Assembly (NCBI RefSeq): GCF_963576675.1
Contig: NC_088918.1
Location: 30,537,501-30,601,500, forward strand
Length of the DNA stretch: 64,000 nucleotides
Direction: 5' to 3'
Source: Euphorbia lathyris
Lineage: Eukaryota > Streptophyta > Magnoliopsida > Malpighiales > Euphorbiaceae
The translations under genes and the position numbers were made by a program. Below are positions 16,601 through 41,617 of the stretch, piece by piece. Under the pieces are notes generated by a model. That model searched no databases and was not told the origin of the DNA. It saw nothing but the letters and a program-made list of their open reading frames with translations. Each line of letters begins with the position of its first letter. The stretch's first letter is position 1.

Positions 16601-18791
16601 AGTTCCAACAAAATCAGGCAACTCTTGACTCAACAAATTAAAATTCGGACAAGAATATTTTTCTTCAGATTTATTCATTAGAGTTTTACTCTCTCTATGA
16701 TCTTTCTTCTCTCTTTTAATTCTTTCAACCAACGCATCTATCTCATCAAAAAATTCAGAATTAAAATAAGGATGGCTATCTTGACTAGACAAATCACAAT
16801 CAACATCTCCAGTCATTCCTGAATCTTTTTTACTTTCCGCTTTGTTCTCATTAACTACTTCTTCTTTCGCTCCTTCACTTTGAGAAACCAGATCTTCATT
16901 GCCTCGAGTATATTTACTCCACAAGGTGTTGATCAGATTAGACATCTCAACACTTGTACCATCTTCACCAAAAACAACATTAGCTTCTTTCAACATACAG
17001 TACATTTCATTAACTTTAGAACCCAATTCTTTAGCTAATGATTGGAACTTAGCAAGAAATTCCTGCATATACAAATCCATAATAAAAAAACAGGGCATGT
17101 TATAAATAATATTAAGCATGTTCTAAAATCTAATAAGCATGTTCTAAAATTTAAAAACAAAGATAAAGATGTAATAACGTACAAAAATTTGAGCAGGTCC
17201 ACTCGAAGAAGCTTCTCCACATTCCTTCCTATTGGCTCCTTCAGCATCTTGATTATCTTCTCTTGGCACATTTCCTTCATCCATATCCATATTTTCTCTT
17301 ACCAAATTTTCTCCCACCACTATTCTGTCTAACACAATCCCACTTCCAAATCCCCTCATCTTTTTCAAAACCATCCTCTTTTGTATTCGTTCTTTATTCC
17401 AAACAGATATCAGTGGAAAATCTCTTGGATTAACAACATTAGCTCGTTGAAGCCTATCAAAATAACTTATCTACAAAAAAATAACAAAAATGAACAAGTT
17501 ATACACAAATTTAAAAATAAACAACAAACAAATATTATCAAACACATAATCAAAAAAAGAAAATTACACTTACCAACAAGAAAGGAAGGGGACCTGTAAA
17601 AAAAGTAGGACTCCTTTTCCATTCACTGACAGAATCCAACAAATGCTTATATGCAAAAGAACACCAATCCAAATTTGCAATTTCCTTAACATTCCTATAA
17701 CTATAAAGAAACTTATAGTTCATAGCCTGGTTCTTGGTAGAACGAATACAACAATTCACAACATAGAATACAAAATGCAACAAAAACTCATCACACAATG
17801 GTTTCGTCTTCAGATCATTCAGCTTAGCAATCACAGTACTATTAATTGGATTTCCAATCTCAAGTCCAAAATATGACCTCCATTGAGCAAAAAAATCTGA
17901 AGACTCATCTTCCCCAACATCTTGTGGCTCCTCAATTTCTACACCTCCACAAGGCAAGCCATAAACAGCCTTAAAATCATCCTTAACAAACTTCAATTCT
18001 TCACTATTATCCAGCATAAGGCTACACCTATCAACATTAAAACTATTCACAAGTTTTTCACAAAAAGTAGCATTATGAACATCTAAACTTAGATGCAAAA
18101 ACCCACCAAATCCAATCCGCTTAATTGCATCCTTATGAGTCTCCGGAATATCATGAAGAATACCCATAAACTGTTTAGGAGGTATTCTTTGACCAAGAGC
18201 AACCTTATTCCGTTTAAAAACATTTTCATCATCACCTACACTAACAACCTTCTTCCTCTTCTTTAAAAACCTAGAAGCAACATACAAGTTTCTGGCAAAC
18301 TTCACTTTCTTTACCTTCTTAGCATCAACATCTTCCTTTAAAGCATCAACATCTTCCTTTAACGCATCAACTGAAGCTTCAGAAACTTGAGAAGAATCAA
18401 AACCTTTACTAGATAGACTCCTTGTTTGCCGCCTAAATGTACCTTTCCTAGATTGACTACTAGTTTGCCGAATCAACTCACCTTTCATAGATTGACTCCT
18501 GGTTTTCCGCCTCAACAAACTATTAGACGGAACGATGTAACTAGACAACAAATCATTGTCAGCAGGAATGGCTGGCATTGAAGGTCTTTTCGAAATTGAA
18601 GCTCTTTTAGAAGTCCTTTTAAATCTTCTAGAAGAATGTGTTTTTTCAGTTCTAACTTCAACAGGAACAACAGTTTCACCTTTCTTCTTATTTTTCTTAT
18701 CTTCATCAGAACAATATTTTTCCATAATATCATCCAGCAAATTCTGATCAATAACATTCTTTGGAAAAATCTCTTCTCCATTGCCGCCCAT
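13640..18791 (-). CDS. MULE-borne multi-exon protein with two Ulp1/C48 protease domains
   Basis: Start ATG 18791. Exon 1 (18791-17574) has a basic Ser/Arg-rich N-terminus, then a domain with FGGFLHLSL, CSLMLDNSEEL and AVYGLPCGG, typical of plant transposon Ulp1 proteins. Exon 2 is 17470-17183; later exons are near 17063-16550 (acidic linker), 16346-16080, 15997-15818, 15736-15625 and onward. C48 domain 1: catalytic His in GHWTLSII, Asp in YWLDPL, Cys in HKTCGFFVMRF (about 15330-15350). Domain 2: a KLPRYLQSPF block (14694-14880), VVDAWSRILN, His in HFYLFVIN, Asp in IDVIDN, Cys in NNDDCGVFLLKH (about 13725). A one-base slip in an A7 run near 16580 probably breaks exon 3. The two domains are connected through open exons, so a single product is likely but needs transcript support. 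C48 enzymes cleave SUMO-type conjugates. Confidence 0.7.
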
Positions 18792-18799
18792 TTTCTAAA

Positions 18800-21588: not shown

Positions 21589-22778
21589 TTAACCTGAGAT
21601 TAGCCTAGGGAAGCTAACCCCCACTACATCTTCCAAAAGAAGAGAAGATAAATAATCAGGAGGAAAAGATAAGGTTGTGACGTCCAACATCCGCTCATGC
21701 GCATCAGCCGCCAAACGATCCGCTACCCGATTTTGCTCTCTAAAGACATGGCTGAAGCTGATGAAGTCAAAGGAAGAACAAAGCCTTCTAATACCTTTGA
21801 TTAAATTTTGGCTATTTAAACAAATAGCTTTCTTATCGGAGATCATTTTAATGGCCTCGAGGTTGTCAGATTCTACAAGCACCTTTTTCAACCCTAGACT
21901 CTTGGCCAGTCTTAGGCCAGAAAAAATCCCCCAAAGTTCAGCCGAAAAGGATGAACCCATGCCTAGATTATGAACAAACCCAGACAGCCAAGCACCCCCA
22001 TCATCCCTTAGAACACCTCCTGCAGAAATTTTACCGTTATTAAGGCAAGAACCATCCGTGTTTAATTTTACCATCCATTCCCTAGGCCTACAACAGCCAA
22101 GGAGGTGAAAATTTTCTTTTGGGTAGAACTAGCAAGTGCATCTCCTTTGAAGCTGTCAATAATATTGGATAATTTTCCCGAGAAGAACTCTCTCAAATTA
22201 GGAAGAATAACAGTTTTCCTTTCAAAAATCTCCTCATTCCTCCAATACCAAATCTGGTGACAGACAATAGCAAAGAAAATATCACCATGCTCAAGGTCAG
22301 CCAACAACTTCCCACTAACTCCATCTGCAAATCAGTCAAGATCAGAGTGGGCCAAGAAAGTCGAAAGCAAGTGGTGAGGGAGAACTTTCTTCCACACTTC
22401 CTTACTCCTAGTACAATCCCTAAGAGCATGGAAAATAGTTTCCACATGTCATCTGCATCTGCTCCAAGCACCAGAATCCACCAGATGCCATCTATTTCTA
22501 TCTTAATTAGTGAGCAACCTATCCTTAACACCAAGCCATAGAAAGCTCCTGATACGGTAGGGAATCTTTAAACCCCAAATAAGCTTCCAGACATCAGAGT
22601 TGGAACCCGCCCCATTTTGATTGAAGGCCTCAAAGGCAGATTTACAGGTATATGCCCCGTTATTTGTCAACGCCCAACAATGACTATCCTTATCTTCCTC
22701 CTTATTGCTTATCTTAACCCCTCTAATCCTCAAGAGCAAGGAGAACATTGGAGTGGGGCTGCCAATTATCCTGAACAA
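21589..22778 (-). pseudogene. LINE A ORF2 C-part: zf-RVT and RNase H
   Basis: The frame from 22778 has the zinc-binding reverse-transcriptase-like region of plant L1s (SAFEAFNQ, VWKLIWGLKIPYRIRSFLWL). After frame changes near 22510 and 22310, the 161-residue RNase H domain (22074-21589) follows with catalytic-type Asp in LNTDGS, Glu in SAELWGI, Asp in VESDNLEA and Asp in RVADRLA. It is joined directly to the endonuclease C-terminus near 22750; the polymerase core with its YADD-type motif is absent. Confidence 0.8.
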
Positions 22779-23571
22779 AGTTTTTAAACTCAGGGTGAGA
22801 TTCCCAGGCCACCTGGTACCTAAAAGGTCTATCCCCTTTAGACCGATGGCTTTTAACCAACTTAACTAAAATAGGACAGTGATTAGAGTGACGGAAAGGA
22901 AGATTTAACACTTTCTATTCGGGAAATCTACAGATAGCTTCAATTTCGCATAAACTTTGTCCAACCGAACAAATACATTATTACGCTTCCAAATAAATTT
23001 ATGACCAGCAGCTCCCAGATCCGAAAGCCCACATAAATCCATATTCTGTTTATGGTTAAGGCACCTGTTAACATAGTGGTTCCCACCCCCTCTTTGATCG
23101 CTCATAAGTGCAATATCGTTAAAATCCCCAGCCACAAACCAAGCATCCAAAATACTTGTACTCATAGTATACAGAACCTCCCACAGCCTTTTACGATTGG
23201 CCATAATAGGATCAGCATAAACAAAGGTGATAAAGAAGGGTTTATTACCAGGAAAACAAACCTTACTATGAATAAATTGTTTATCCATACTGACAATGTC
23301 AATCTGAACAAGATCTGGCTTCCAGAAGAGCCAAATCCCCCCCAGCCCGGCCAGTAGCCTCCGATCTGACACAATTCCAATTACTAAACTTTCTAACCAC
23401 CTCATCTGCTTTACTACCACTGATCTTAGTTTCCAACAAAGCAAAATAAGAAGGGTTAAATTGTTTAATTAAATCTTTAACATGGATACGTTTAGCCTTA
23501 CTAGCCGCACCTCTAACATTCCACACAAAGAAGTCCATCAAAAGGTAGACTACTGACCACAGGCCCAACAC
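22723..23571 (-). pseudogene. LINE A ORF2 N-part: APE-type endonuclease
   Basis: Begins at the Met preceding FFVWNVRGAASKAKR (about 23535), with FALLETKI carrying the catalytic Glu, then a frame change near 23370. The second frame (23444-22905) has FAVAGDFNDI-type sequence (read as WFVAGDFNDIAL) and RLDKVYAKL; a third frame holds the HSNHCPIL block, where the usual catalytic Asp of SDH reads Asn. The domain ends at about 22750 where the deletion to the zf-RVT region occurs. It would nick target DNA in an active L1; this copy is dead. Confidence 0.8.
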
Positions 23572-25783
23572 CCTAAACCAGGTGTAGGTGCTGCAGCCTC
23601 ACCCGGGCGGACCGGGGGGTGGACACCGTTGACGACAGATGATGTGATTGGCGCCGAAAGCAACCAATCGCGGAATCAAGCTGCTCGGCAGGACCGGAGC
23701 CTAGAGTATGGAAGAGTCGCCACCCACGAATGGGAAAATGAACACCGATCCCTTGCGGGAGACCGGTGATGGTTCGGGAAACTTAGGTACGAGCCGAGAA
23801 GGCTAGCTCCTTTCCGGAGAAAGGCTACTAGGCACCCCGACATCGCCCGATTGTGAACCACCGGCCTCCTACTTAGCGTGTTAGGCGATAACGGACTAAT
23901 CGTATATTTCTTTAAGTTTAAAATTCATTTGAAACATTTTCTTTCTCGCTTTGAAAACCGTTTTGAGCATGTTATTGAAAGCCATTTTATTAAAGAATCA
24001 CCCATTTTGCATGAATTTAAAGCATATAGGAGAGAGAGGGGGATAGAAGAAAGAATTGATTTATTTACAGTGTGAGTTATGCTTTATATCATATATTATA
24101 TCTACGCTAATCTCACTCCCAAAAACGAGTTTATTTACATGGCTCGTACCTTAATCACCATTGGAACGACTTAGGTACGTTTCAAAACCCCGTTAGTTTA
24201 TATGATGTTCACTTGAATCGCCGTTGGAACGACTCGAGTGTTTGAAAACGTTGAAATGAGAAGTTTTAACAAGAAAACGTGATTAAGCATACAAGTCCAT
24301 TAATTTTGTACAAAACTGTTTAGTTAGGAAAACGATTTAAAACTCTGTTATTTACAATGAAAACGGTTTTAATTACAAGGTTCGCTTAATTCGTCGTTGG
24401 AACGAATTAAGGTTTCGAAACGTGACATTTTAGAAAACCACTTGGAACCAAAAAGAAATAAAAAACTCTTATTTACATTTTTGAAAGTCTCCAAATGCCT
24501 TTAATTTACACAATTGAATTGGAATCCTTTCGTGGCTTATTTTCCCCATTTTCACTCTCTTTAACCTTCATAATCACAACAATTAACAAATCAAGGCCAA
24601 ATTCATCCAACCAAATACATTTGAAATATACACATATATACAAAAATAGAGTGAAAATGCATATATATATATACATTTTTATCCAAAAATAAGGATATAT
24701 CTATAGATGAAAACGAGTAAAAGATACTATATGGTATAATAAAGAAAATGAAAAATACTAAATATAATGCATTCTTATTCTAATTCAAAACATGTAAAAC
24801 AATGAACAAAGTTCATAAATGTGAAGAATATCATTTGGTTCAAACTAGTTTTAAGTAATAAATATATAGAAAATAACTTCCATCCTAAATAACGACTAAT
24901 ATAACTTGAATGAGCCAAAAACTATATATGTATACAAATATAATACTTTACAAAACCAAATCAAAATGAATTAGGTTCCAAATATGAAATATATAGCTAC
25001 ATAATACGTAATTAATAGTTATAGGACTCAAAAATAATTTTTATAAATATATTACATAATTAAATACCTATGTATACAAGTATAAATATCAAAAAGTTGA
25101 GAAAATGGGGTTAAAAGGGGAATTTTCGGATTCCAGCAGATTACCGACAGAAAATCCGTCGCTAATCTGCTGTTAGTGACAGAAATGGCAGAATATCAAC
25201 AGCAGTCCTTATACTTTCCAGATTCATTAGAAGGCTTTAAATCTACTCTATTCTATCATTTTGGGCCTCCGAACTACCCCAAATCGGGTCATAGTCTACA
25301 ACGGAACCTCCCTAAACGAGATCACGGTTCGTATTGGGACTTAAGACGGGATCACGGTTCGTATTGGGACTTAAGACGAGGTTTTTTATTTCAAAACAAA
25401 ACCAAATGTTTATTTAATGCGTGACGGAATTTTAAATAAATACGGGAAAATAAATAAATGTGATAAATAAATAACTAAATAAATAAATAAAACTACATCC
25501 TAAAAATAAATAAATGAAGAAAATAAATAAAATAAATAAAATAAAACGAGTCTAGTCCTCGGATAATACCTCAAGATCGATATTGACAGCTGAAGTCGGT
25601 TGATTCCACGAATTATGATTTTTCGGTGTTGTTGGTGTTTTGGTAAAATATTTAACTTTTAGGAAATTTGGATTTTGTTGGAAAAAAATGTTTTCTCCCA
25701 AAAAAATTAACTTTCTCTCTCTAAAAATGTCTAGAGTGAGAAGCTCCCAAAAATTCTCCTCCCAAATGCATGGGGATCCGTGC

Positions 25784-25797
25784 CTTTTATAGGCACG
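25784..25797 (-). promoter_or_regulatory. LTR TATA box inside an 11-bp inverted repeat
   Basis: On the minus strand CTATAAAAGG (about 25784-25793) is the core promoter, flanked on both sides by GGATCCGTGCC and its complement, so it would sit at the tip of a hairpin. The other LTR copies keep the arrangement with scattered substitutions (41008-41036 and 62889-62918). Confidence 0.6.
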
Positions 25798-25852
25798 GAT
25801 CCCAAGAAGTTTTGGGCGTCGCCCGACGGGAGTTAGGCGACGCCCAAAACAG

Positions 25853-25935
25853 GTTGGGCGGACGCCCAACCTTAGTTGGGCGAACGCCCAACTTATGTTG
25901 GGCGTTCACCCAACGTCGTTGGGCGTTCACCCAAC
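25853..25935. repeat. Array of four ~18-bp palindromes in LTR U3
   Basis: Palindromes at 25853-25870, 25875-25892, 25897-25914 and 25918-25935 follow GTTGGGCGNNCGCCCAAC with variable centres, at 21-22-bp spacing, about 60-140 bases upstream of the minus-strand TATA box. Equivalent arrays are at 41087-41168 and 62970-63055. More degenerate CGGGC..GCCCG palindromes continue to about 26110. Confidence 0.8.
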
Positions 25936-26384
25936 TTCATCGGGCATCGCCCGACGACGGCCAGGCGATGCCCGACACGACTGGGCGGTCATCGAACGGC
26001 CGTCGAGCGATGTTGACCGTGCGTCGGGCCACGCCCGACGCTCGACGGGCGACGCCCACGCTCCGACGGGCGACGTCCGATGCTCGGCACATCGGACGGG
26101 CGCCCGACGTGCCGCGCACCGTTGTTTACGGAGCGACGATCGCTGCTGGGAGCGTCATTCATCACTCACCGGCCGACGCTCGTTCTCCGGGGCCTTATCG
26201 CTCACTGTCGTAACAGTGAACGTACCCGACCTCACTCAGGAGACGCTGAATTTGTTAGCGGGGCTTTCAAGTGCCGGCTCCCCGATCTTTTCTGTTTATT
26301 TTTAAATTTTCTAATTAATGGAATCAACCGACTTGGCCGTTTATCGTGGGTTTTCGTCACAGGTCCTCCGGCTGGGTGTCTACA

Positions 26385-26400
26385 GTTGCCCCTACTTTTC
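26385..26400 (-). promoter_or_regulatory. Tat polypurine tract
   Basis: On the minus strand GAAAAGTAGGGGCAAC directly abuts the 3' LTR; this purine-rich segment is the expected plus-strand DNA primer. The same sequence abuts the LTR at 63507. Confidence 0.7.
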
Positions 26401-26631
26401 TATTTTGACAGTGATGTGTGTGTTTTTGAAAACATTTTCCGTGAATGCAACACATGCAATGGAAATATATTAAAGTAAAAGACACATATAGAGTTGGAGG
26501 AGGAATACATGATCTCCGCGTCGCACGCTCCTGCCTTGTCTCCGATCTCTGCCTTGTCTGTCCCGTCTTTGCCTTTGAATCGGCTGCCGACGGACGCTTC
26601 TCGTGGGGACTCTGGCCTAGATCGATCGTAA

Positions 26632-27064
26632 GTAAATGGCTCTCTCTAGTAACCTAGGTCACCGATCGCGGGTAAAGTGGCTCTCTATAGCAACCTCGGT
26701 CATCGACCGTAGGTAAAATGACTCTCTCTAGCAACCCTGGTCATCGACCTTGGGTAAAATGGCTCTCTATAGCAACCTCGGTCATCGACCGTAGGTAAAA
26801 TGGCTCTCTATAGCAACCCTGGTCATCGACCGTGGGTAAAATGGCTCTCTATAGCAACCTCGGTCATCGACCGCGGGTAAAATGGCTCTCCCTAGCAACC
26901 TCGGTCATCGACCGTAGGTAAAAATGGCTCTCTATAGCAACCTCGGTCATCGACCGTAGGTAAAAAATGGCTCTCTATAGCAACCTCGGTCATCGACCAT
27001 AGGTAAAAATGGCTCTCTATAGCAACCTCGGTCATCGACCGTAGGTAAAATGGCTCTAACTAGC
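26632..27064. repeat. Ten-copy 41-bp tandem array in Tat 3' region
   Basis: Units begin GTAAAATGGCTCTCTATAGC and end with a GGTCATCGACCGTAG-type segment; about ten full copies and one partial, differing at a few sites and by one or two A insertions. Hypervariable tandem repeats in this position are known from Tat/Ogre elements. A related array is at 63735-64000. Confidence 0.92.
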
Positions 27065-27418
27065 AATTCGGAATTTCAAGACACTATCGTCTGCATTTTG
27101 ACTGGGGTTACTGTCTCGTGTACTGGAGTAATTGATGGGAGTGTCCTTATCCTTTCGTCTGGAACACTTTAGACTGAAAAAATCATTTTTTTTTGTTTTG
27201 TTGACTGTTGTCTGTATTTTAACTGGCGCCACTGTTCTGTAAATTTTGGCTGTCATCTGGAGTCTTCTCCTAGGGGTATTGGCCACCGCCTGGTAGAAAC
27301 ACAGGTTGAAACGGACTGCAAATCGGAGGTCTGTGCACCCGGTAATTAATTATTTACTTTTTACCTTTATGTCACGTCGTACCTTTTTCATTATTACGGA
27401 TATGACATTTCCTCTTCC

Positions 27419-27428
27419 TATAAAAGGT
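27419..27428 (+). promoter_or_regulatory. TATA box of the antisense plant-mobile-domain gene
   Basis: CTATAAAAGG lies 76 bases upstream of the ATG at 27504, followed by a CT-rich leader (27457-27480). Position, strand and leader composition fit a plant core promoter. Confidence 0.65.
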
Positions 27429-27503
27429 GGTGGGGTTCATTTCCAACCCCACACCTTCTCTCTCTTCTTCTCTCTCTCTTACTAAAATTAGAGTATTCTC
27501 GTG

Positions 27504-30500
27504 ATGGGGTCGGATAGATACGATGGCACGAAGTGTATGGAGGCGGGTTTCGAGGACTTGATTAGAGTGGCTCCCTTTCAGAATCCTGATTCTCACCTGA
27601 GCCGGACCAACGTCCATCCGGTAAGTACCCCCTTGTTTTTTATCATTTGTCAAGACCCCTAGGTTTTAGCAACTCCATCTTGAACGTCATTTGCATGCTA
27701 ACCTTTAATCTGCTTAGAAGCCTTTTAGTTAGAAAACGCGAATTTTTATGCACGTGAGCAATGCTTTATGTTTTTTTTTGTTTTTTTTATTTGTTGAAAG
27801 AATGTGAACTTTGCATATGTGAATAGTAAGAATGCGAACAATGCATGCGATTAGGAAACGTGAATAGTGTACGTAAAAAATGTGAATAGTGCACGTGAAT
27901 AGTAAAAATGTGAATAGTGCACGTGAATAGTAAAAACATGAATAGTGCATGTGAATAGTAAAACGTAAAAATGTACGTGAATAGTGCAAGCGAATAGTAA
28001 AACGTGAATAGTGCACGTGAATAGTAAAACGTCAAACTGTACGTGAATAGTAAAAACGTAAAAATATACGTGAATAGTAAAAACGTGAATAGTGCACATG
28101 AATAGTAAAAAATACTAAATGCTTTTAACCCAAGCTTGAATTGGATTAATCTCCTCGCAAGCACGCGGGAGAGTGGAACACCAAAGAATAATGAATTAAA
28201 TCAAATCCTATACAAATGATCCTACAAATGAAATCTCAAAGAGTAACGATCCTAATCGAAAGGAATTTCTAAGTTAGATTTAAACACAACCAAAAGAATA
28301 ACGGAATTCTTATTAGATGTACGTATAGAAGTGAGGCTATTGAGAAATAATGACTTTAGTTTAGCCTCTTGCCTTACCCGTACTGTTCCTTCCAGGTCAT
28401 TGGCATTACTGGGACCACCGTGGATATACATACCTGGTATGCTATGCTTAGCCCAGCGGCTAAAGCCCGCGTTCGAGAGTTGGGCTTCGAGCCCTTTATT
28501 CTGGCGCTGCCTCGTGCCAATGGTGTGTGTGACCGACACGGCTTGAGTGCTTTATGTGAGAGGTGGGTAGACTCGACTCACACCTTTCACCTTTCGTTTG
28601 GGGAGATGACGATCTCGCCCCACGACTTCTCGCTATTGACTGGATTGCGGGGTAGCGGCATTTCGGTCCCCCTTTGCTTCGATATGGTGCGTCCTCGGGT
28701 CGACCCTACCGAGATATCTAATTTGATTGGACCCGGAGTCTACATGTGTTCCGGGGCCACTCCGGTGAAGTTCGTCACTACCTTCGGGCTACTGAGCCGC
28801 AGGGACTTCTGCGACCGAGATGACATGGATCGGGCCACCCGTAGCTTCCTCCTGTATGCTTTAGGCGAGACGATCTTCCGCACTAAGAGCGGAACCATAC
28901 ACGCAGGTCTCATCCAGGCTTTCCATGATTTGGACGTAGTGTCGTCCTATGATTGGGCTGGAGCTGGCTTGGCCTTTCTATACAAGTTTTTGGACTTGAC
29001 TTGCCGGAAGCGCAAGGATTTCGGCGGTTACACCTTTGCCCTCCTGGTGCGTTTTCTATCATCGGCTTGTCTCTTTATTCTTTTCACGATTTCTGCTTTT
29101 GACGTCGGTTTTTACGAATAGGTTTGGGCCTATGAGAGGAGGATTCTCCCGAGCGCCCGCAGGATTAGACCGCACGTAGCTACGCTTCCACTTATGGCGA
29201 GGTGGAGTGACTTTGACTTGCGCATCGAGAGGAGGCGGACGATGGCACGATTCCTATCATGGATTGACACACGGTGCCTGGGACAGGTGAACGTCTCCTG
29301 ACTATGCTGGATTTTCATTCGTTCTTGTCTGACTTTTCTTATTTTTCAGATCTCCTTCAGATGGGACGACCTCGACTTCGGTCCCGATTACGCCTATGTC
29401 ACCTGCATCCAGGGGCAGCAGTGTGTGCTCACCGGCCCGTGCGTACGAGCGTGGTATTTGGGCGACAGGAGTTTTACCGGGGTTGACGCCACACATTGGA
29501 CTCCAGGCGAGATCCATGTGTCTATGTTCGCGGTGAGGATCATGCCCCTGCAGGAGATACGTTGTGATTTGACTCGCCAATTTGCGCCTCGGGACGTGTG
29601 GGACCACGCGGGGGGTCGCACCCACTATTTATCGACACTGTTGACTCCGATGGACCCTCTTGAGGTTGTGATGGACGTGGATCCTGCGGATGACGTGTTC
29701 TCGGCGGCGGCCGTCGCTGAGGTCTTCGGCCTAGAGGAGGTTCCGGTAAGTGCTTGACTTATTTATTCTTTATTTGTGAGATAGTTAGGTGTATTCATTT
29801 TGTCTTTGCTTGCAGGAGGGTTCCTTAAGGAGCGCTCGGACGTCGGACTTTTTCGATGGTACCCGAGCCCGGACATCTGTGAGCGAGCCTTCATATCATG
29901 CGGGTGAGTCCTCCGACGCCGCCCGACCAGAGCAGCTCTACCTTAGCGCACCCTTCCCGACCTCAGGGAGAGAGTATTCGGTGGTTCGTTATGGCGAGGC
30001 GGGCGTGGCCTACTCCGGCGTTGAGACAGCCCCTCCGGTTTTCACCTCGATGGTGTCGTTCGATCCCCCTGATGCCCTCCATACCTCGATGGAGACATGC
30101 ACCGACTTCATGGGATTATCCGATTATTTTCGAGAGCGGCTCAACCTGCGTTGCGCCAGCCACCTGGTAAGTATTCTTATTTTGTCATAGTGTAGTGAAA
30201 TGTATGCATGTGATGCGCTTATGTATGTATAACTTCCGTTGTTATCTATTTTGGTGTTTTTTTTCTTTTCTTTTTTTTATTTGCAGAGCGATCTTCATGC
30301 TAATGATCAGCGGTTCAGCGAGTCGCAGCGGGATACCGATGCTAGGGTCGGACGCGTCTACCGAGAGAGAGATGCTTATTGGGCGGAGATGATCCGAGTG
30401 GAGACCGAGGGGCGCCTTGCCGCGGAGGAGGGTCGTCGGGTTGTCGAGGAGGCCTTAGCCGGGGAGCGGGCTTCACATTTGAGGGACTTCGAGGACTTCT

Positions 30501-30517
30501 GGGATTTTCCTCCTTGA
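27504..30517 (+). CDS. Antisense plant-mobile-domain (PMD) gene in the Tat element, six exons
   Basis: Exons 27504-27620, 28396-29046, 29122-29286, 29350-29745, 29816-30166 and 30287-30517; every intron is GT-AG and every junction is phase 0, giving about 636 residues with no stop. Exon 2 contains the aminotransferase-like plant mobile domain (PF10536 type): ALCERWVDSTHTFHLSFGEM, TISPHDFSLLTGLRGSG, then SYDWAGAGLAFLYKFLD and in exon 3 VWAYERRILP. Exon 4 carries the WDDLDFGPDYAYVTC and RAWYLGDR block; exon 5 is low-complexity; exon 6 is an acidic coiled-coil-like tail. It converges with integrase (ends 247 bases apart). PMD proteins are found in host genes (MAIL1/MAIN, linked to silencing) and as passenger genes of transposons; antisense extra ORFs are known in Tat elements. 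Function here unknown. Confidence 0.82.
27870..28115. repeat. Degenerate GTGAATAGT repeats in intron 1 of the PMD gene
   Basis: About fifteen GTGAATAGT words separated by AAAAACGT or GCAC linkers fill the middle of the 775-base first intron. Minus-strand frames here are artefacts of the repeat. Confidence 0.8.
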
Positions 30518-30763
30518 TAGGCCCATTATTTGTAGTTTTCTCATTAGTATTACCCCGATGTATAGCTTGTATATAGGGAGAGGGGTGGATAGGTTGTAGG
30601 CTTTTTATGTGAAGGAGGTAGGAAATGTATAACTCATGATTCATAATACAATGCATTCAGTAGATTATAATGATTCCAATCATTCTCTTCAAATATATTC
30701 ATGCCTTTATTTATTTACAAACAACAGAAATACTTAGTCGCTTATACATTATTTCGTAATTGT

Positions 30764-31351
30764 TCAAGATATAACTACTGTTACCAGGATTATGCCGTCC
30801 ATAGTAGTTAGCTTCACCGCCCCTTTGCTTAGGATCTTCTTCACGAGGAACGGTCCTTCCCAGTTTGGCCTAAACTTTCCCCTAGGGTCGGTGTGCGTCA
30901 TTCGGATCTGTTTCAGCACCATATCTCCTTCTTTGATAGGGCTGGCCTTGACCTTTTTATTGAAGGCTCGGGCCATCCTTCTCTGATATAACTGCACATG
31001 GTAAAGAGCCTCCATCCTTTTCTCGTCCACCAATGCCAACTGTTCATATCTCTTCTTCACCGATTCCGTCTCGGGAATCTCTGCTTCTACTGCGATTCTC
31101 AACGATCGCTTTTCAATCTCAATTGGGAGAACGGCTTCTGCCCCATATACTAAGGAGAATGGCGTTGCCCCAGTTGACGTTCTAACCATCGTGCGATAAG
31201 CCCATAAAGCGAGCGGAAGCTGCTTATGCCAATTCCGATGCGATTCCACCGTCTTTACGAGAATCCTCTTAAGGTTCTTATTTGCGGCCTCCACTACACC
31301 GTTAGCTTGCGGGCGATATGGAGAAGACTTATGATGCTCGATACCGTATTC
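30764..31351 (-). pseudogene. Tat integrase, C-terminal part
   Basis: Continues the integrase frame after an in-frame TAG at 31352-31354. The catalytic Glu lies in VVEAANKNLKR; the LALWAYRTMVRTSTGATPFSLVYG block and a C-terminal DPRGKFRPNWEGPF module are typical of Ty3 integrases. The last ~10 codons (after TTMDG) depart from the usual ending, suggesting a small indel. Confidence 0.85.
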
Positions 31352-32950
31352 CTAGAGGATACTTCTCACTTCCCCCTGAAACTGGACCCCATTATCCATG
31401 ATCATGTGATGAGGCACTCCGAACCTGATGATTAGGTGCTTTTCAATGAACTTCCTCATCTGCTTAGATCCCAACTTGCTAAACGATTCTGCCTCTACCC
31501 ACTTGGTGAAGTAATCAATGGTAACGGCAATGAATTTGTGCCCATTTGATGCATTAGGCCTCACTTCTCTAATGATATCAATGCCCCAAGCTGCGAACGG
31601 CCAAACGGGTGCCAACACGTGCAGTTCCATAGCCGGCAAGTGATTATAATCTCCGTGGATTTGACAATCATGGCATTTCTTCGCATATTCATTGCAATCT
31701 CTTTCCATGGTGAGCCAATAGAAGCCTTGCCTTATAATTTTCTTTGCCAACACTGTTCCTCCCATATGGGCTCCACAAATTCCTGAGTGCACTGACTCCA
31801 TTGCCTCACGGGCTTCTCCCTCGTCTAAAGATCTCAATTGTAACCCATCGGTGTGCCTTTTGTAAAGCAGATCGTTGTGGATGACAAATTGCTGAGCTAA
31901 CCTTCTGATCACAGCCTGATCCCTAAGTTCTGATTCTGCCGGGTACGTTCCACTTTTCATGAAGTTCACGATATCGAAATACCAAGGCTTTTCATCCGCT
32001 CCCAACAACATTACGTCTTCATAGCACGGTTTGTGGGATCTCCTCAACACCAAAGGCTTCGAGGCAAGGTTCCGAGGATTATCCCATACTGACACTAATG
32101 TGGCCAAAGCATCAGCCGCTTGGTTCTGCGCTCGAGGAATATGATAAAAGAGACACTCACCGAACCTCTGTGCTAACCCCCCTAGCTGGTCTAGGTACGG
32201 GCGCAATCTCTCTTCTCTTACTTCCCAATTTCCCTGGGCTTGCTCGATAATTAACTTTGAGTCGCCCCAGATTTCAACATATGATGCTCCCAGCGCTGCT
32301 AACGACTCTAACCCGTAGATGCACGCTTCGTACTCGGCCATATTATTGGCGAGAGGGAAGGATAACTTCTTCGCCATAGGGATCATTTCTCCTTCCGATG
32401 AGATAAGTAGCACTCCTACCCCGGCTCCATTCGAGTTAACCGCTCCGTCAAAGAACATTTTCCACGGTATAACTTCTATTGCGTTCAAGTGCTCATCGGG
32501 GAAAACATAGTTTATCTCCTCCTCTTCTGCATTTAGAGGCTGATTGGCCAGGAATTCCGCTACGGCTCTCCCCTTAATAACCTTTTTCGTTACATATTCG
32601 ATGTCGAATTCGGACCAGAGCAACAACCATCGGGCTAGCTTCCCTGTTAGAGACGGAGTTCGGTACAGATACTTCACGGGATCCATCCGGGAGATAATGA
32701 TTACTTTGTAAGATTGAAAATAGTGCCACAGTTTCTTTGTTAGCCATACTACTGCCACGCACGTCTTTTCGATCATGTTATACTTAAGCTCATATTCCAG
32801 GAACTTCTTACTCAGATAATACACTGCATGCTCCACACCTGTGTCCCCTTCCTGGGCCAGCATTGCCCCAATTGATCGCTCCTCGATCGCTACATAGAGG
32901 AGAAGCGGTTTTCCGAGTTTAGGCAGTCTCAAAACAGGTGGATTAGACAA
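31352..32950 (-). CDS. Tat RNase H, archaeal-type RNase H and integrase N-part
   Basis: A 532-residue frame. Residues ~5-140: Ty3-type RNase H fold (LLYVAIEERSIGAMLAQ, YYLSKKF, LTGKLARW), in which the usual first catalytic Asp of the TDAS motif reads Ala. Residues ~160-290: second, archaeal-type RNase H with a full DEDD set (FFDGAVNSNGAGVG, NNMAEYEACIYGL, IWGDSKLI, NQAADALA); this domain defines the Tat clade. Residues ~385-530: integrase zinc region (H..H, KKCHDCQIHG), then catalytic Asp in WGIDII and Asp in MDNGVQF. It is bounded by in-frame TAG codons at 32957-32959 and 31352-31354, so the polyprotein is split only by nonsense changes. Confidence 0.9.
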   Translation of the reverse strand: MSNPPVLRLPKLGKPLLLYVAIEERSIGAMLAQEGDTGVEHAVYYLSKKFLEYELKYNMIEKTCVAVVWLTKKLWHYFQSYKVIIISRMDPVKYLYRTPSLTGKLARWLLLWSEFDIEYVTKKVIKGRAVAEFLANQPLNAEEEEINYVFPDEHLNAIEVIPWKMFFDGAVNSNGAGVGVLLISSEGEMIPMAKKLSFPLANNMAEYEACIYGLESLAALGASYVEIWGDSKLIIEQAQGNWEVREERLRPYLDQLGGLAQRFGECLFYHIPRAQNQAADALATLVSVWDNPRNLASKPLVLRRSHKPCYEDVMLLGADEKPWYFDIVNFMKSGTYPAESELRDQAVIRRLAQQFVIHNDLLYKRHTDGLQLRSLDEGEAREAMESVHSGICGAHMGGTVLAKKIIRQGFYWLTMERDCNEYAKKCHDCQIHGDYNHLPAMELHVLAPVWPFAAWGIDIIREVRPNASNGHKFIAVTIDYFTKWVEAESFSKLGSKQMRKFIEKHLIIRFGVPHHMIMDNGVQFQGEVRSIL

Positions 32951-32956
32951 GTAGTT

Positions 32957-34687
32957 CTAGACACTCTCCAATGCTTGCTGGCACTTATCATTCCAAACCG
33001 TGGGTTGATCTTTCCATAGCAGCTTAAAGACCGGCTCGCAGATCGCAGTGAGTCGTGCTATGAACCGACTGATATACTGAACCTGCCCCAGAAATCCTCT
33101 CACTTCTTTCTCATTTCTTGGTGCCGAAATTTCCTGTATGGCCTTTACCTTATCGGGATCCACCTCGATCCCCTTGTTACTGATCACGTAGCCTAAGATT
33201 TTCCCCGATGAAACACCAAAGAAGCACTTCTTCGGGTTCAACCTTAGCTTGAATTCTGCAATTCGGGCCAAAAACTTCTCAAGTGCAGCAAAATGCCCCT
33301 CTCTTGTCTCCGATTTGACCATCATGTCATCCACATAGACTTCCACTTCCTTGTGTATCACATCGTGGAACAGTGCCGTGGCCATTCGCTGGTAAGTTGC
33401 CCCAGTGTTTTTCAAACCAAATTGCATTACTCTATAGCAGTACGTTCCCCACTCAGTTGTGAATGAGGTCTTTGCTTTGTGCTTCTCGGCCATCTGAACT
33501 TGCATGTAGCCCATGAAACCATCCACGTTCGTGTGTAAGACGATTGATGTTGCACTATCAATCAATACATCGATGTGAGGCAATGCAAACTCATCTTTGG
33601 GGCACGCCTTGTTGAGATCTCTATAATCAACGCACATTCTCACTTTACCGTCCTTCTTCGCGATTGGCACTACATTTGTGACCCAAGGGGGATAGTCGAT
33701 TACTTCGATGAAACCTGCTTCTAACTGTTTCTTCACTTCCTCTCTGATCTTATCTGCCCATTCTGGCCTCATGCGTCGGAGTTTCTGTTTCACAGGCTTA
33801 GCATCAGGGTATGTCGGAATACGGTGAGTTACGATTGATTGATCGATCCCCGGCATGTCTTCGTACGTCCAAGCAAACACTATTTCGTATTTTTTAATTA
33901 TTCTCTCAAATTCTTTTCTATCTTCAATAGTTAATTCTTGAGCAATTTGTATAAGTTTAGGATTTTCATCTGTGCCAAGATTGAAAGTTGACATTTCTAT
34001 TGCATTGATTTCAAATGTAGGCATGTTATATGAATGAGAATGCATGGAATGATCAGAATCAACATCAAGCAAGTAAGCAAAATCAGAATTCATTTCATTG
34101 ATAGCATTGGCGAGTACATCATCAGATTCAAACAAAGCGGTAATACAATTGTCATCAACAGGGTTCTCGGGTTTCTCATAGGCCTTGGAGGTGTCGGGCT
34201 CATCCACCGCTCCCACAGTGGCTTCCATTGTGATGACCTGCTCCTCGGCATTAAGATCTAACATCATGATCTCCTCGATGAAGCAGCTTGCTTCTCCTTT
34301 GCCCCAGCTGGTGACATCGTTGAAAATCTCAAAGCCTGGCAGAATTTTTCCTTCGATCCCCCCAGCCATTTCTAGCTCATCATCAGACTCATCCCAGATA
34401 TTGATCGGAGCTCTCTGATTGATACCTTCCTCGTCCGAGGAACTTCCCCAAATATCCACGACCATTAGGTCCATCATATGAGGGACATTCGGATTCACAT
34501 AAGAGGGGTCTGACGATCCATACAAAGCCCAGCCTATCAGCTCGTCGTAGTCCCTGAGGAACACCCCGTTCATTCTTCTAGCCACGAGCGGAATAGCACC
34601 CTTTCGGATGCACATGAGTTGCTCCTGATCGCTCAAGGTGACCCGACATGAGGCATACTTGAACCTCCATCTTCTTGCATATTCCAT
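32957..34687 (-). CDS. Tat pol: fourth gag repeat C-part, acidic linker, reverse transcriptase
   Basis: A 576-residue frame. Residues 1-45 finish the fourth gag-like repeat (MEYARRWRF, SDQEQL). Residues ~60-240 are an acidic linker (WGSSSDEEG, DESDDELE); no DTG/DSG protease motif is visible, although protease is expected here in the family. Residues ~270-560 are reverse transcriptase: PVKQKLRRMRPEW, CVDYRDLNKACPKDEF, first Asp in NVDGFMGYMQ, and YVDDMMV for the second and third. Following TAG at 32957, RNase H continues in the same frame. Confidence 0.88.
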   Translation of the reverse strand: MEYARRWRFKYASCRVTLSDQEQLMCIRKGAIPLVARRMNGVFLRDYDELIGWALYGSSDPSYVNPNVPHMMDLMVVDIWGSSSDEEGINQRAPINIWDESDDELEMAGGIEGKILPGFEIFNDVTSWGKGEASCFIEEIMMLDLNAEEQVITMEATVGAVDEPDTSKAYEKPENPVDDNCITALFESDDVLANAINEMNSDFAYLLDVDSDHSMHSHSYNMPTFEINAIEMSTFNLGTDENPKLIQIAQELTIEDRKEFERIIKKYEIVFAWTYEDMPGIDQSIVTHRIPTYPDAKPVKQKLRRMRPEWADKIREEVKKQLEAGFIEVIDYPPWVTNVVPIAKKDGKVRMCVDYRDLNKACPKDEFALPHIDVLIDSATSIVLHTNVDGFMGYMQVQMAEKHKAKTSFTTEWGTYCYRVMQFGLKNTGATYQRMATALFHDVIHKEVEVYVDDMMVKSETREGHFAALEKFLARIAEFKLRLNPKKCFFGVSSGKILGYVISNKGIEVDPDKVKAIQEISAPRNEKEVRGFLGQVQYISRFIARLTAICEPVFKLLWKDQPTVWNDKCQQALESV

Positions 34688-36661
34688 GAATGCTTCCTCG
34701 GGAAACTATTTGATCATTTCCAAATCTTCCAACGACCCTGTCCACAGAATGTATATCTCATATCTCCGTACAAAGGCCTCCATGAGGGATCCCCAGTCCC
34801 CCTTGGTCTTCCCCGAGAGCATTCGGTACCATATCAAAGCTTACCTCGTAAGCGTCTTTGGAAAGTGTTGGATCAATTCACTTCGATAGAGTCCCGCATC
34901 AAACATGTGGGTTCGGAAACGGTTTACGTGGTCGATGGGGTTCTCATCTCCCCTGTACTTAGCCATGGTTAATACCGCCTCTGGTGTCTCCTCATCGGGT
35001 GACTCAGGCATTTTCTCTAGGCGTCCCCATGCAGTGTACTTCTTGATGAACCTCTTAGTCATTTCTGCCCAATCTGCTTTAACATGCATTGGAAGAGACA
35101 TGTACCACACCAGTGACTCTCCTGCCAATGAGTTGCAAAACAAGCTCATAATCTCCTCCTCTTTGAAGCCTAGAGGACCCATAGCCGACAGATAAAAATG
35201 CAGGTGCTCCATGGGGTCCTTCCCTTCATTATACTTACTGACGGCAGGTAACGGGCGCCTGATAGGCCCAATTTGCATTGCGCTATGTTTCGCCACCCGT
35301 GCTTTGGCTCTCCTATACTCCATTAAAAACAAGCTCGACATCAGTGACCAATCATGCTTAGTCGAGTCAGGTAATGCTTGAAACCACTTCAAAGGCACCC
35401 CCACCAGCGAAAGATAGAACCATGGAGCGACTTCTTCTATTTTGTATGGCTCCCCAAATATAGCACACACGTATCCGTATAAATGAGCTTCGGGGTCTTC
35501 TACCCCACTGAACAATTTCAGCACAGGCATGATCCTCCGAGATGATACCCCCTCGGTTTCGTCAGTTTTAGTTCTATCATCCATCACTTCTTCCGTTGGC
35601 TCTTCCTCCAAAACAGACACATACAAACCATTTCCCACGTTCCTCTTCTCATCGGAGTCCAACAACTCCTCCTTAAATTCACAGAATGATCCCACCACAA
35701 AATTTTCCTCCAGCCCAGATCTACTTGCGCTCACCCCATGGCTAGTTTTCTTGATGGCATTGAGTTCAAGAACTCCTATTATGACGGGTTCTACGTGAGC
35801 ACTCGGCCCTCCAGCACCGTTCCCCAACTTCCTCCGCTTAGCATGAGATATTTTCGGCTCTTCATCAACTGTCAAGGTGTAGCTGTGCATTTGATTGAAA
35901 TTGGTGAAAGGCATATACCGTAGCTCCTCCTTAATATACGGCAAAGTGTTGCCAATTACCATTCGGATCTGGTCCTGCTCCAGCGGTTTCTGTTTCATAA
36001 CTTCCGCCTTGGCTCTCCACCTGCTCATGAAGTCAAACAAGGACTCCCCAGCCTGCTGCTTGGTGCTTTCTAGCTCCTTCAGAGTCACCTCCGACATAGT
36101 GTTGAAGCTATATCGGGTAATGAATGCCTTTGTCAGTTCCTTCCAATCCCTCTTTGTCACTAGCGGTAACGCATGGAACCATATGAGGGCAGCACCCTCC
36201 AGATAAGTATTAAACAGTCTCAAGACTTGCTCCTCAGTTAAGATCGTGTGTTTCATCACAGCAACATACTGATTCATGTGAGCGGTAGGATCCCCCGTTC
36301 CATCGAACTTCTTCATGTCCGGGAGCCGGAATTTCAAAGGCAAAGCAGTTGCCGATAAACAATTCTTCAAATTATAAAAATCCTGACTCCCGGAGCTTCC
36401 TCCACACAAATCATGCACCCCCTGAGTGATGTGCTGCTTCCATTCTTCTTCTTTAACTTTCTCCTTCTCAAGCTGTTTCTGGATGTAATCCTGATAGTCA
36501 TCCTCGTTCCCGAAGCGGGGACCAGTGTTCACGTCATTCTTAGTGCGCTTACTCCCACTCTTGTTATCCTTCAGTGCCAGCCCAGTTAGCTGGTCTAAAA
36601 TTGCAGTCAATTGATCGCTGATATTGTTTACGACTCTTTCTAACCCCTGCAATCCTCTCAT
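34640..36661 (-). CDS. Tat gag with four gag-like repeats
   Basis: Residues 1-100 are helical and charged (VNNISDQLTAILDQL). Residues 108-250 are a complete gag capsid-like domain (MKKFDGTGDPTAHMNQY, LFNTYLEGAALIWF, RDWKELTKAFITRY, then FMSRWRAKAE). Similar motif sets recur at ~377-450 (FSGVEDPEAHLYGY, LKWFQALP, HDWSLM), ~468-543 (YNEGKDPMEHLHFY, LVWYMSLP, ADWAEMTKRFIKKY) and from ~562 (YRGDENPIDHVNRF), continuing past an in-frame TAA at 34841-34843 to a WY..LSG..KGDWGSL block and a second stop at 34706-34708. The upstream frame 36833-36564 overlaps and ends with MSTPDER just before this start, suggesting a one-base shift removed the true N-terminus. No zinc knuckle seen. Confidence 0.85.
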
Positions 36662-36834
36662 CTGGCGTAGACATACTGACAGAATACCGAGCTGACTTGA
36701 ACAAAGATGATTCAGAAGACACTACTCTCGATTCGGAATTGACAAACTGTAGCTGGTCGAACTGCCTGACTAGCCGACTACTTTCGCGGAACCACAACCC
36801 CTTAATGATGACGTCTGCGTGAGCGATATCCATT

Positions 36835-38750
36835 AGTATGTATGCATGATTTTATATGCATGATTCGTGGTGTGTGCGTTTATTTATTTACGGATATATA
36901 AGATAAGAAGAACAAACGTCAGTCTAATTACACGTATCACAACATCTCTCTTCCACCCTTATTCCTCCACACACTCGATGGTCCAAGTCTCTTTCCTAGG
37001 ATTTTGGTTTGGGGCTCACATTGCGGTCCAGGGGACGCGTGATGCCGTCGATTATTGCGGAAAAATAAATCATTCACTAGAAAATACAGTTCGTTTTGAC
37101 GTATCAACGTTCAGTGATTAAGATATCGACCAAATTGGATTGTCCTTTCGGAATAACTCGTCTTTTGTCATTTTGCGAGATACATTAGTCCGGGTTTTAA
37201 CTCCCTTCTGAGCGTATCTCGGATTTTAGACGTGGCGTGAGTTACTCTTTTGGTTCAATCGTTCGTTATTGACAATGACTCGTTCCCCTTTATTCGCGTG
37301 GGTTCGTATCTCAATTTTTGGATTACGATGGGATCTTTTGGATCTATCGAGAGACGCAACCACGTGTTTATTTAGTGATGAAATCACTTTTTGGATTTTA
37401 TTTTAGGGAACGGACTCATCGCGTAACGTGTTTGTTTTTAGCGTCAAGAATCCGTTTGCTCGTTTTGGCTACGTGAAAAGACGGCGAGTCTTACTCGAGC
37501 GCACGATAATCTTTCGGCTATTAACAACTCTTTATTTCTTCCAATTTACGGGATATATCATCCTAACGTGGTTATAGGAAATCAACGTTTCGTTTAATCT
37601 CAAGCTTATTCGAAGCAAGGCTATTACCGTTCTCCTCATTTAGACACGAATCGAGCAAACACGCAAATCGGGCCATATTTCTTGTGGTTTTGGTAACGGT
37701 CGAAATGATCGAGCCATTAGTCAAATCCACAGTCTCGTCCATATGGTGCAATCATGCGGTTTCTTAGCTTGATTCGGCTTCGTGATTTTAAACGGCGTAT
37801 ATACCAGTTCGAGGCACATATTTAACGGAATTGGTTCATTTTCTTTAACTACTCTCGGGATTGACATATATCGTAGATACAGAATGATTTTGGTCGTTTG
37901 TTTATTTTTGCTTTTCTTTCATTTAGTCACTTTTGCGGATACGTCCATTTCTCCTTAGAACAACGCAAGGTGTAACGTAAGAGTTTGTCTTTTATTTGGA
38001 AGGGACGGGCCAAGTTTATGAAACTCTTTACGTTACAACGGGGTCGTTCTAAACAGAAATGTTCTTCTTTTTCGTTTTGTCATAATCTCGCTTTATCCCA
38101 ACGTATTAAAGAATGTGAACAACGATTATCGTTAATATAGTCTTTTGAATTGAGATATAACCATCCTTAATACCAAACCGATTTGTACTAATACGTGCTT
38201 ACGTCATAACGCATTTCCTGAACATGTGCCTTCTTCGGGACACGAAAAGGGACTAGGCGGGCCGCACAAGTTCATTCATACGAGATGACTAAGTCGTCTT
38301 TAGTTCGAATCGTTTCAATGTTTTGGGGTAGTTTATATATCGGTTCAAGAGTATATATTAACGTATCGTTTCATTTTCTTTACATAGTTTAGGATTAGAC
38401 ACGTATCATGGCAATTTGAAAACACGAATTGATTCATTTATCACATCAAAAATGGTAACAGGTAATCCTATGGCAACTTCTAAGGCTACTATATGCTGAC
38501 ACGGCTGATCGCGGGACCTCACAGGACCGCACAAATTCGCCCCTAACGAATGGATGGGGACCCTTTGGCGCCTTACTGTAAGGGAGAACTTACACTAGCC
38601 TCTTTCGAGCGACGAATGGACTCTCGCTAGAGGTTTCACGGAAATTACCCAAAAGGTTTGCAATAATGCTTATGAATGCATATGAAAAGAAATAATACGA
38701 TCCGTCCCCATTAAGGGCTTAATACACGCCTTCTGGAATCAAATTTCTCG
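36835..38750 (-). other. Tat 5' leader, no ORF
   Basis: About 1.9 kb between PBS and gag with no convincing frame on the minus strand. Ogre elements often have an extra ORF here; none is visible. Nothing else recognised. Confidence 0.6.
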
Positions 38751-38770
38751 CTTCCCCAGCAGAGTCGCCA
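38751..38770 (-). promoter_or_regulatory. Tat primer-binding site
   Basis: Minus strand TGGCGACTCTGCTGGGGAAG starts two bases inside the 5' LTR. It resembles the tRNA-Arg-type PBS reported for Ogre elements; the tRNA identity was not checked. Confidence 0.75.
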
Positions 38771-38772
38771 CT

Positions 38773-41617
38773 TGTAGGTGCCGTGGCCTCGCCCGGGAGG
38801 ACCGGGGGGTGGACACCATTGACGACAGATGCTGTGATTTGCGCCGAAAGCAACCAATCGCGGAATCAAGCTGCTCGGCAGGACCGGAGCCTGGAGTATG
38901 GAAGAGTCGCCACCCACGAATGGGAAAATGAACACCGATCCCTTGCGGGAGACCGGTGAGGGTTCGGGAAACTTAGGTACGAGCCGAGAAGGCTAGCTCC
39001 TTTCCGGAGAAAGGCTACTAGGCACCCCGACATCGCCCGGTTATGAACCACCGGCCTCCTACTTAGCGTGTTAGGCGATAACGGACTAATCGTATATTTC
39101 TTTAAGTTTAAAATTCATTTGAAACCTTTTCTTTCTCGCTTTGAAACCGTTTTGAGCATGTTATTGAAAGCCATTTTATTAAAGAATCACCCATTTTGCA
39201 TGAATTTAAAGCGTATAGGAGAGAGAGGGGGATAGAAGAAAGAATTGATTTATTTACAGTGTGAGTTATGCTTTATATCATATATTACATCTACGCTAAT
39301 CTCACTCCCAAAAACGAGTTTATTTACATGGCTCGTACCTTAATCACTGTTGGAACGACTTAGGTACGTTTCAAAACCCCGTTAGTTTATATGATGTTCA
39401 CTTGAATCGCCGTTGGAACAACTCGAGTGTTTGAAAACGTTGAAATGAGAAGTTTTAACAAGAAAACGTGATTAAGCATACAAGTCCATTAATTTTGTAC
39501 AAAACTGTTTAGTTAGGAAAACGATTTAAAACTCTGTTATTTACAATGAAAACGGTTTTAATTACAAGGTTTGCTTAATTCGTCGTTGGAACGAATTAAG
39601 GTTTCGAGACGTGACATTTTAGAAAACCACTTGGAACCAAAAAGAAATAAAAAACTCTTATTTACATTTTTCAAAGTCTCCAAATGCCTTTAATTTACAC
39701 AATTGAATTGAAATCCTTTCGTGGCTTATTTTCCCCATTTTCACTCTATTTAACCTTCATAATCACAACAATTAATAAATCAAGGCCAAATTCATCCAAC
39801 CAAATACATTTGAAATATACACATATATACAAAAATAGAGTGAAAATACATATATATATACATTTTTATCCAAAAATAGAGATATATCTATAGATGAAAA
39901 CGAGTAAAAGATACTATATGGTATGATAAAGAAAATGAAAAATACTAAATATAATGCATTCTTATTCTAATTCAAAACATGTAAAACAATGAACAAAGTT
40001 CATAAATGTGAAGAATATCATTTGGTTCAAACTAGTTTTAAGTAATAAATATATAGAAAATAACTTTCATCCTAAATAACGACTAATATAACTTGAATGA
40101 GCCAAAAACTATATATGTATACAAATATAATACTTTACAAAACCAAATCAAAATGAATTAGGTTCCAAATATGAAATATATAGCTACATAATACGTAATT
40201 AATAGTTATAGGACTCAAAAATAATTTTTATAAATATAGTACATAATTAAATACCTATGTATACAAGTATAAATATCAAAAAGTTGAGAAAAGGGGGTTA
40301 AAAGGGGAATTTTCGGATTCCAGTAGATTACCGACGGAAAATCCGTCGCTAATCTGCTGTTAGTGACAGAAATGGCAGAATATTAACAGCAGTCCTTATA
40401 CTTTCCAGATTCATTAGATGGCTTTAAATCTACTCTATTCTATCATTTTGGGCCTCCGAACTACCCCAAATCGGGTCATAGTCTACAACGGAACCTCCCT
40501 AAACGATGTTTTATTTTAAAACGTTAATTAAAAAGGATTTTTCTAAAATTTATATGTATACAACGTTTTAATCCCGAACTACCCTCAAACGGGATCACGG
40601 TTCGTATTGGGACTTAAGACGAGGTTTTTTATTTCAAAACAAAACTAAACGTTTATTTATTGCGTGACGGAATTTTAAATAAATACGGGAAAATAAATAA
40701 ATGTGATAAATAAATAACTAAATAAATAAATAAAACTACATCCTAAAAATAAATAAATGAAGAAAATAAATAACATAAATAAAATAAAACGAGTCTAGTC
40801 CTCGGATAATACTTCAAGATCGGTATTGACAGCTGAAGTCGATTGATTCCACGAATTATGATTTTTCGGTGTTTTGGTAAAATATTTAACTTTTACGAAA
40901 TTTGGATTGTTTAGGAAAAAAATGTTTTCTCCCAAAAAAATTAACTTTCTCTCTCTAAAAATGTCTAGAGTAAGAAGCTCCCAAAAATCCTCCTTCCAAA
41001 TGCATGGGGATCCGTGCCATTTATAGGCACGGATCGCAAGAAGTTTTGGACGTCGCCCGACGGGAGTTAGGCGACGCCCAAAACAGGTTGGGCGAACGCC
41101 CAACTTGAGTTGGGCGACGCCCCACTTCAGTTGGTCGATCGCCCCACGTCGTTGGGCGTCCGCCCAACGTCGTCGGGCATCGTCCGACGATGGCCAGGCG
41201 ATGCCCGACACGGCCGGGCGGTTGTCGAACGGCCGTCGAGCGACGTTGACCATGCGTCGGGCTGTGCCCGACGCTCGACGGTCGACGCCCACTCTCCGAC
41301 GGGCGACGTCCGACGCTCGGCACGTCGGACGGGCGCCCGATGTCCCGCGCACCGTTGTTTACGGAGCGACGATCGCTGCTGGGAGCGTCATTCGTCACTC
41401 ACCGGCCGACGCTCGGCCTCCGGGGCCTTATCGCTCACTATCGTAACAATGAACGTGCCCGACCTCACTCAGGAGACGCTGAATTTGTTAGCAGGGCTTT
41501 CAAGTACTGGCTCCCCGAGCTTTTCTGTTTATTTTTAAATTTTCTAATTAATGGAATCAACCGACTTGGCCGTTTATCGTGGGTTTTCGTCACAGGTCCT
41601 CCGACTCGGTGTCTACA
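38773..41617 (-). repeat. Tat element 5' LTR
   Basis: Promoter-bearing LTR for the minus-strand transcript. TATA region at about 41017-41026 has a substitution relative to the other copies (minus strand CTATAAATGG). Palindrome array at 41087-41168. Bounded by CCAGG at 41618-41622. Confidence 0.92.

Follow-up and report, generated by a model that had tools for sequence, protein, structure and literature searches.

The retrotransposon copy described here carries, antisense to its own gag-pol, an intact six-exon gene for a plant mobile domain (PMD) protein, and codon-level comparison of its relatives in the Euphorbia lathyris genome supports maintenance of this gene by selection in replicating elements, at the level of the family rather than of the single copy. 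We consider it likely that the PMD gene serves a Tat-lineage LTR retrotransposon as an accessory gene, equipped with its own antisense promoter, spliced from six exons and kept by selection acting on the elements as they replicate. The copy lies in a 64,000-nucleotide stretch of contig NC_088918.1 (positions 30,537,501 to 30,601,500), hereafter the window, in whose coordinates positions are given, and it is an ordinary ageing member of its family, with PMD still open and pol decayed.

Structure of the antisense gene and its carrier

The PMD gene occupies 27504-30517 on the plus strand, where five GT-AG introns, all in phase 0, separate six exons that join into 636 codons followed by TGA. A sequence-only reading of the window had proposed this structure, and it was exact in its introns, its stop-free codons and its assignment to the PMD family. 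All six exon lengths are divisible by three, the joined exons contain 24 and 31 stops when read in the other two forward frames, and in random sequence of equal composition the openness of the reading frame would arise with P ~1.3e-10. The predicted protein matches PF10536 (E 3.7e-25) with 89.3 bits, above the curated Pfam cut-off of 34.9, which places it in the plant mobile domain family; the domain spans residues 85-307, and a Pfam scan at E up to 1 returned, besides PMD, only a sub-threshold 4HBT_3 match. Upstream, a TATA box (TATAAAA, 27419-27425, +) was found as that reading had claimed, though 78 rather than 76 bases 5' of the ATG.

Exon 1 (27504-27620), with the ATG, is followed by exon 2 (28396-29046; dN/dS 0.11), which encodes the bulk of the PMD, and then by exons 3 (29122-29286; 0.25), 4 (29350-29745; 0.15), 5 (29816-30166; 0.27) and 6 (30287-30517; 0.17), all on the plus strand. 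The last of these carries the stop codon and a charged tail whose helical character comes solely from a low-confidence model of the annotated protein P0003 (mean pLDDT 40). The exon junctions are also crossed by annotated E. lathyris proteins, along the entire length in the case of P0003, and two of them (P0009 and P0010, isoforms X6 and X7) have exon 1 or an upstream exon spliced in frame to exon 3. NCBI isoform labels are as a rule backed by RNA reads. In P0005, P0009 and P0010 a gag domain is fused to exons of the PMD gene, with exon 2 skipped in two of the three; these fusions are possibly read-through out of an adjoining transposon.

The carrier is an 18-kb Ty3/gypsy element (23583-41617) whose sense strand is the minus strand, so that the PMD gene is antisense to it, in the stretch that separates pol from the 3' LTR. 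Its LTRs (3' LTR, 23583-26384; 5' LTR, 38773-41617; both -) are defined by their pairing and by a 5-bp target duplication, CCAGG, on either side of the element. They differ by a K2P distance of 0.041, although a single age may mislead since the differences are unevenly spread, with 30 in the first 1500 aligned sites and 79 in the next 1200. A TGG... stretch follows the 5' LTR; in Ogre elements the primer-binding site is one for tRNA-Arg. A 41-bp tandem array of 10.6 copies (26621-27057; Tandem Repeats Finder) separates the 3' LTR from the PMD promoter. By eye, the ORFs on either side of the element (21589-23468 and 41613-43087, -) resemble two halves of one LINE, as if the element had inserted into it.

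On the minus strand, gag-pol runs as a single frame from 36721 to 30764 without a frameshift, and the four stops counted in the sequence-only reading are present in that frame ahead of the terminal stop. Along it lie gag (34841-36721; PF03732), reverse transcriptase (RT; 32957-34705; PF00078), a segment with a gag-pol-frame stop at each end that encodes RNase H, a second RNase H and integrase (31352-32956; PF17917, PF13456, PF17921 and PF00665), and the integrase end (30764-31351), the last with a weak PF13683 match below cut-off. Within that segment the order is RT_RNaseH (residues 15-117), RVT_3 (169-286), then Integrase_H2C2 and rve, so that the second RNase H stands between RNase H and integrase, the arrangement that defines the Tat lineage; a dual RNase H is given for the Tat family in PMC9289625. 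Gag and RT share one frame, interrupted by stops, and none of the four gag and pol ORFs scanned matched a protease family in Pfam; for Ogre, gag-protease and RT ORFs are reported with a spacer or intron between them averaging 274 bp (PMC6317226). The gag ORF also contains three capsid-like repeats, about 35% identical to one another (residues 128-205, 395-469 and 486-563).

Elsewhere in the window, an open 1781-aa ORF (943-6288, -), whose movement-protein, coat, RT and RNase H matches are of caulimovirus type, is probably an endogenous viral insert. One further ORF (17550-18794, -) has a sub-threshold DUF1985 match, and at 10912-12980 (+) there are ORFs that look transposase-like by eye, of which the two scanned had no Pfam match.

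Copies across the genome

At least 149 other sequences in the genome closely resemble exon 2: the best 150 of 3675 candidates, the window copy included, are 81-100% identical to the window copy, and by hand count 116 of these 150 are free of stops in exon 2 while 34 have one. The element next on the right, L021, carries the same six-exon PMD gene just past the window edge, which answers in the affirmative the question raised in the sequence-only reading of whether the second Tat element has it; so does L023, in opposite orientation and beside or nested in the L021 element. An LTR at window position 60678 is part of this neighbouring PMD-carrying element (L021-L023, C9:30597501-30627500), and the same kind of 41-bp array recurs there (63739-63998), adjoining an LTR and preceding the PMD promoter as in the window element.

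Two samples of copies were compared. The first comprised 23 copies, namely the window copy, L021, L023 and 20 taken down the ranked exon-2 list; all 20 lack an exon-2 stop, against 34 of 150 listed matches with one, so this pick was not blind to stops. The second added eight copies, each with an exon-2 stop. Four copies with unalignable 3' exons were excluded (L034, L041 and L043 from the first sample, L072 from the second), and L023n was omitted from some fits as a divergence outlier. All nine checked splice dinucleotides are canonical in 17 of the 23 copies, and six of the 23 keep every site and have neither stop nor frameshift, a fraction that leans high since the 20 picks are all open in exon 2.

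The promoter region is also retained. A TATA-like box and the ATG are found in 17 of 17 aligned copies and the first donor GT in 15 of the 16 that cover it; L065 gave no promoter match. Among 16 copies, divergence is lowest in the upstream block (0.100), higher in introns 2-5 (0.156) and highest at third codon positions (0.258).

Selection on the coding sequence

The sequence-only reading had asked for dN/dS among PMD copies, and the result is one of constraint. Across 190 pairs of 20 copies, taken in order of similarity to the window copy and with pairs that are not independent, the dN/dS of means falls through rising dS classes from 0.54 through 0.40, 0.30, 0.29, 0.21, 0.19 and 0.16 to 0.13. 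The slope of dN on dS is 0.113 (bootstrap 0.084-0.142, 19 copies). It stays at 0.113 when the stop-bearing copies are added (26 copies; exons 3-6 alone, 0.163) and is 0.116 in the seven stop-bearing copies on their own; retaining L072 raises it to 0.179 (27 copies), and to 0.441 for exons 3-6 alone. As controls in the same 20 copies, the +1 and +2 shifted forward frames give dN/dS of 1.26 and 1.41. In the antisense direction the three frames give 1.25, 0.29 and 1.70, of which the low value is expected where silent positions coincide, making this control not clean.

The sequence-only reading had also suggested selection, from the contrast between an open PMD gene and four stops in gag-pol. Selection at the family level is borne out by dN/dS across copies, but the stop contrast gives it no basis, because chance readily produces that outcome at the age of the LTRs. 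From the LTR divergence of 0.041 and the codons in use, about 1.2 stops are expected in PMD and 4.9 in gag-pol since insertion; the probability is 0.31 that the PMD exons gain none at all, and 0.42 that all four stops fall outside PMD. The contrast within the element was thus rejected as evidence of selection. At three of the four gag-pol stop sites, none of the 12, 4 and 2 aligned relatives has a stop, and at the fourth the one aligned relative has a gap.

Comparison with reverse transcriptase

RT was matched to PMD in 13 elements, the pairing in 10 of these copies resting on distance; in L030 and L039 no match to RT turned up where it was expected. In these elements the slope is 0.109 for PMD and 0.031 for RT, which indicates at the codon level that PMD is under constraint, but looser constraint than RT. 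Stop totals over the 13 copies, whose choice followed the ranking by PMD exon 2, are 8 in PMD against 22 in RT (P 0.0002; exons 3-6, P 0.003). Private nonsense changes in 12 copies number 2 in PMD and 5 in RT (P 0.70), and stops recur at identical codons in different copies.

For the window copy, the intercept corresponds to ~0.042 of divergence free of constraint, near the LTR value of 0.041. Together with the fall of dN/dS with distance, this suggests constraint during replication followed by looser evolution after insertion. Private changes have missense-to-silent counts of 41:55 in PMD and 55:71 in RT, with fewer missense changes than under neutrality in both genes, so the terminal branches are not purely neutral.

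Mean dS in the same elements is 0.70 for PMD and 0.36 for RT. The RT and PMD trees are each rejected by the other's data in AU tests (P <=0.006 in every one of six, with or without L023 and L021), and the simplest reading of this conflict suggests that parts have been exchanged between elements. Given the greater dS of PMD, its presence in L021 and L023 and its many exon-2 relatives, the more recent acquisition that the sequence-only reading had offered as an alternative to selection is not supported.

Kinship with host PMD loci

An unrooted tree of 30 sequences places the element family with a Mercurialis annua protein, P0015 (split support 100), apart from 20 other PMD loci of the genome. 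Two of these, L003 and L004, share by eye the place and phase 0 of the exon 2/3 intron, and in both of them and in the element gene a conserved tryptophan is the second residue past that intron. We call these two loci MAIL-like, a provisional label of our own. The other 18 (L001, L002 and L005-L020) have no intron there and read through. No named MAIN/MAIL or PMD-A sequence appeared in the protein searches, in which candidates were restricted to those sharing short words. The shared intron position fits an old common origin of the element gene and host PMDs, in either direction. Whether PMDs were transferred from transposon to host or the reverse is stated as open in PMC5418596, and an element-borne PMD with an intron position common to a host-type locus bears on that direction.

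Possible roles of the PMD gene

Retrotransposon introns on the sense strand are lost when the element is copied through RNA. In the reading that we favor, PMD would have its own promoter driving transcription antisense to gag-pol, and its protein would be made from the antisense transcripts, while the sense genomic RNA would present the PMD splice sites only in reverse, so that the introns would not be removed and would be reverse-transcribed along with the rest. Antisense placement would thus let introns survive retrotransposition, in line with their retention in copies whose dS from the window copy reaches 1.5. A five-intron gene kept working within a retrotransposon suggests that this placement avoids intron loss.

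What the protein does is a separate matter. MAIN and MAIL1 are required in Arabidopsis to keep transposons silent. With PP7L, they are described as having a role in silencing and gene expression (PMC7156037), and countering or mimicking silencing has already been proposed for PMDs borne by MULEs (PMC5418596). The predicted PMD protein might act in the nucleus and join or block the host PMD (MAIN/MAIL1)-PP7L complex, allowing the element a partial escape from silencing; we offer this step tentatively, as possible and somewhat doubtful. The broader reading, in which an intron-bearing homologue of a host silencing factor would serve as an anti-silencing protein, antisense placement as a device for repeated passage through RNA, and PMD as a separable counter-defence cassette swapped between element lineages, we regard as rather unlikely when taken as a whole. 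Because one sequenced plant holds many diverse copies, the anti-silencing idea lends itself to testing.

A conserved accessory gene could instead serve replication of the element, through nuclear entry, handling of RNA or particles, or LTR transcription, with no part in host silencing. The codon constraint is compatible with any useful role, and the antisense proteins of related elements, one of them nuclear, are discussed as resembling retroviral accessory proteins in PMC7264820 and PMC11963269. Against this, silencing and gene expression are the processes in which the closest studied PMD proteins have their roles (PMC7156037, PMC5418596), and we hold a replication role to be a serious contender whose probability falls a little short of even.

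It is improbable that the importance of the gene lies in the antisense transcript rather than in the protein. A role in antisense regulation or in siRNA production has been proposed for antisense ORFs in general (PMC7264820), and the upstream block is well conserved, but constraint in the PMD gene tracks codons, with divergence of 0.125, 0.104 and 0.280 at first, second and third positions and 0.181 in introns, which weakens a role for the transcript. Recent capture of a host gene, or a neutral passenger useless to the element, would accord with the intron position common to MAIL-like loci; set against many copies, low dN/dS and dS reaching 1.5, it is very unlikely, and at the family level the slope of 0.11 refutes it. 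Domestication of the window copy by the host, suggested by its fully open frame, TATA box and intact checked splice sites, is scarcely credible, since five other copies of the 23 are equally intact across exons 2-6, the absence of stops is expected at its age, and its intercept of ~0.042 lies near the LTR divergence.

Comparison with known systems

PMDs in Tat/Ogre elements are already known, as are accessory genes in antisense orientation. Extra ORFs with PMD occur in Ogre/Tat Ty3/gypsy elements (PMC6317226, PMC5418596, PMC9289625), in 57% of Ogre elements by one account (PMC6317226), and like them the window element combines PF10536 with a Tat-type body; in contrast, the PMD gene here has six exons, lies antisense and has its own promoter, while the available portions of those papers describe no introns or promoter for theirs. 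We found no description of introns in a retrotransposon PMD gene in the open-access literature.

In site, the pol/3' LTR interval, and in orientation, the gene matches the antisense ORFs of Grande (gene23), RIRE2 and Retand (PMC7264820, PMC11963269), and an upstream promoter of its own drives transcription of Grande gene23 (PMC7264820). Tandem repeats are common near the Retand ORFs (PMC11963269), as beside the window PMD. The Retand ORFs usually encode Transposase_28 (PF04195), whereas the window PMD protein has no PF04195 match in Pfam at E up to 1.

With MAIN and MAIL1, which are genic PMD-C proteins, the gene shares the PMD domain, and its exon 2/3 intron matches by eye that of L003 and L004, MAIL-like by our label; it differs in being an element gene that stands apart from L003 and L004 in the tree. 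MULEs with captured PMD-C are likewise mobile and PMD-carrying, and it is for them that an anti-silencing use was suggested, but they are DNA transposons with a PMD-transposase fusion (PMC5418596), unlike the separate gene of an LTR retrotransposon described here. Within the open-access literature, what is apparently new is the six-exon antisense form of the PMD gene, its constraint at the codon level, its intron position common to MAIL-like loci and its history in conflict with that of RT.
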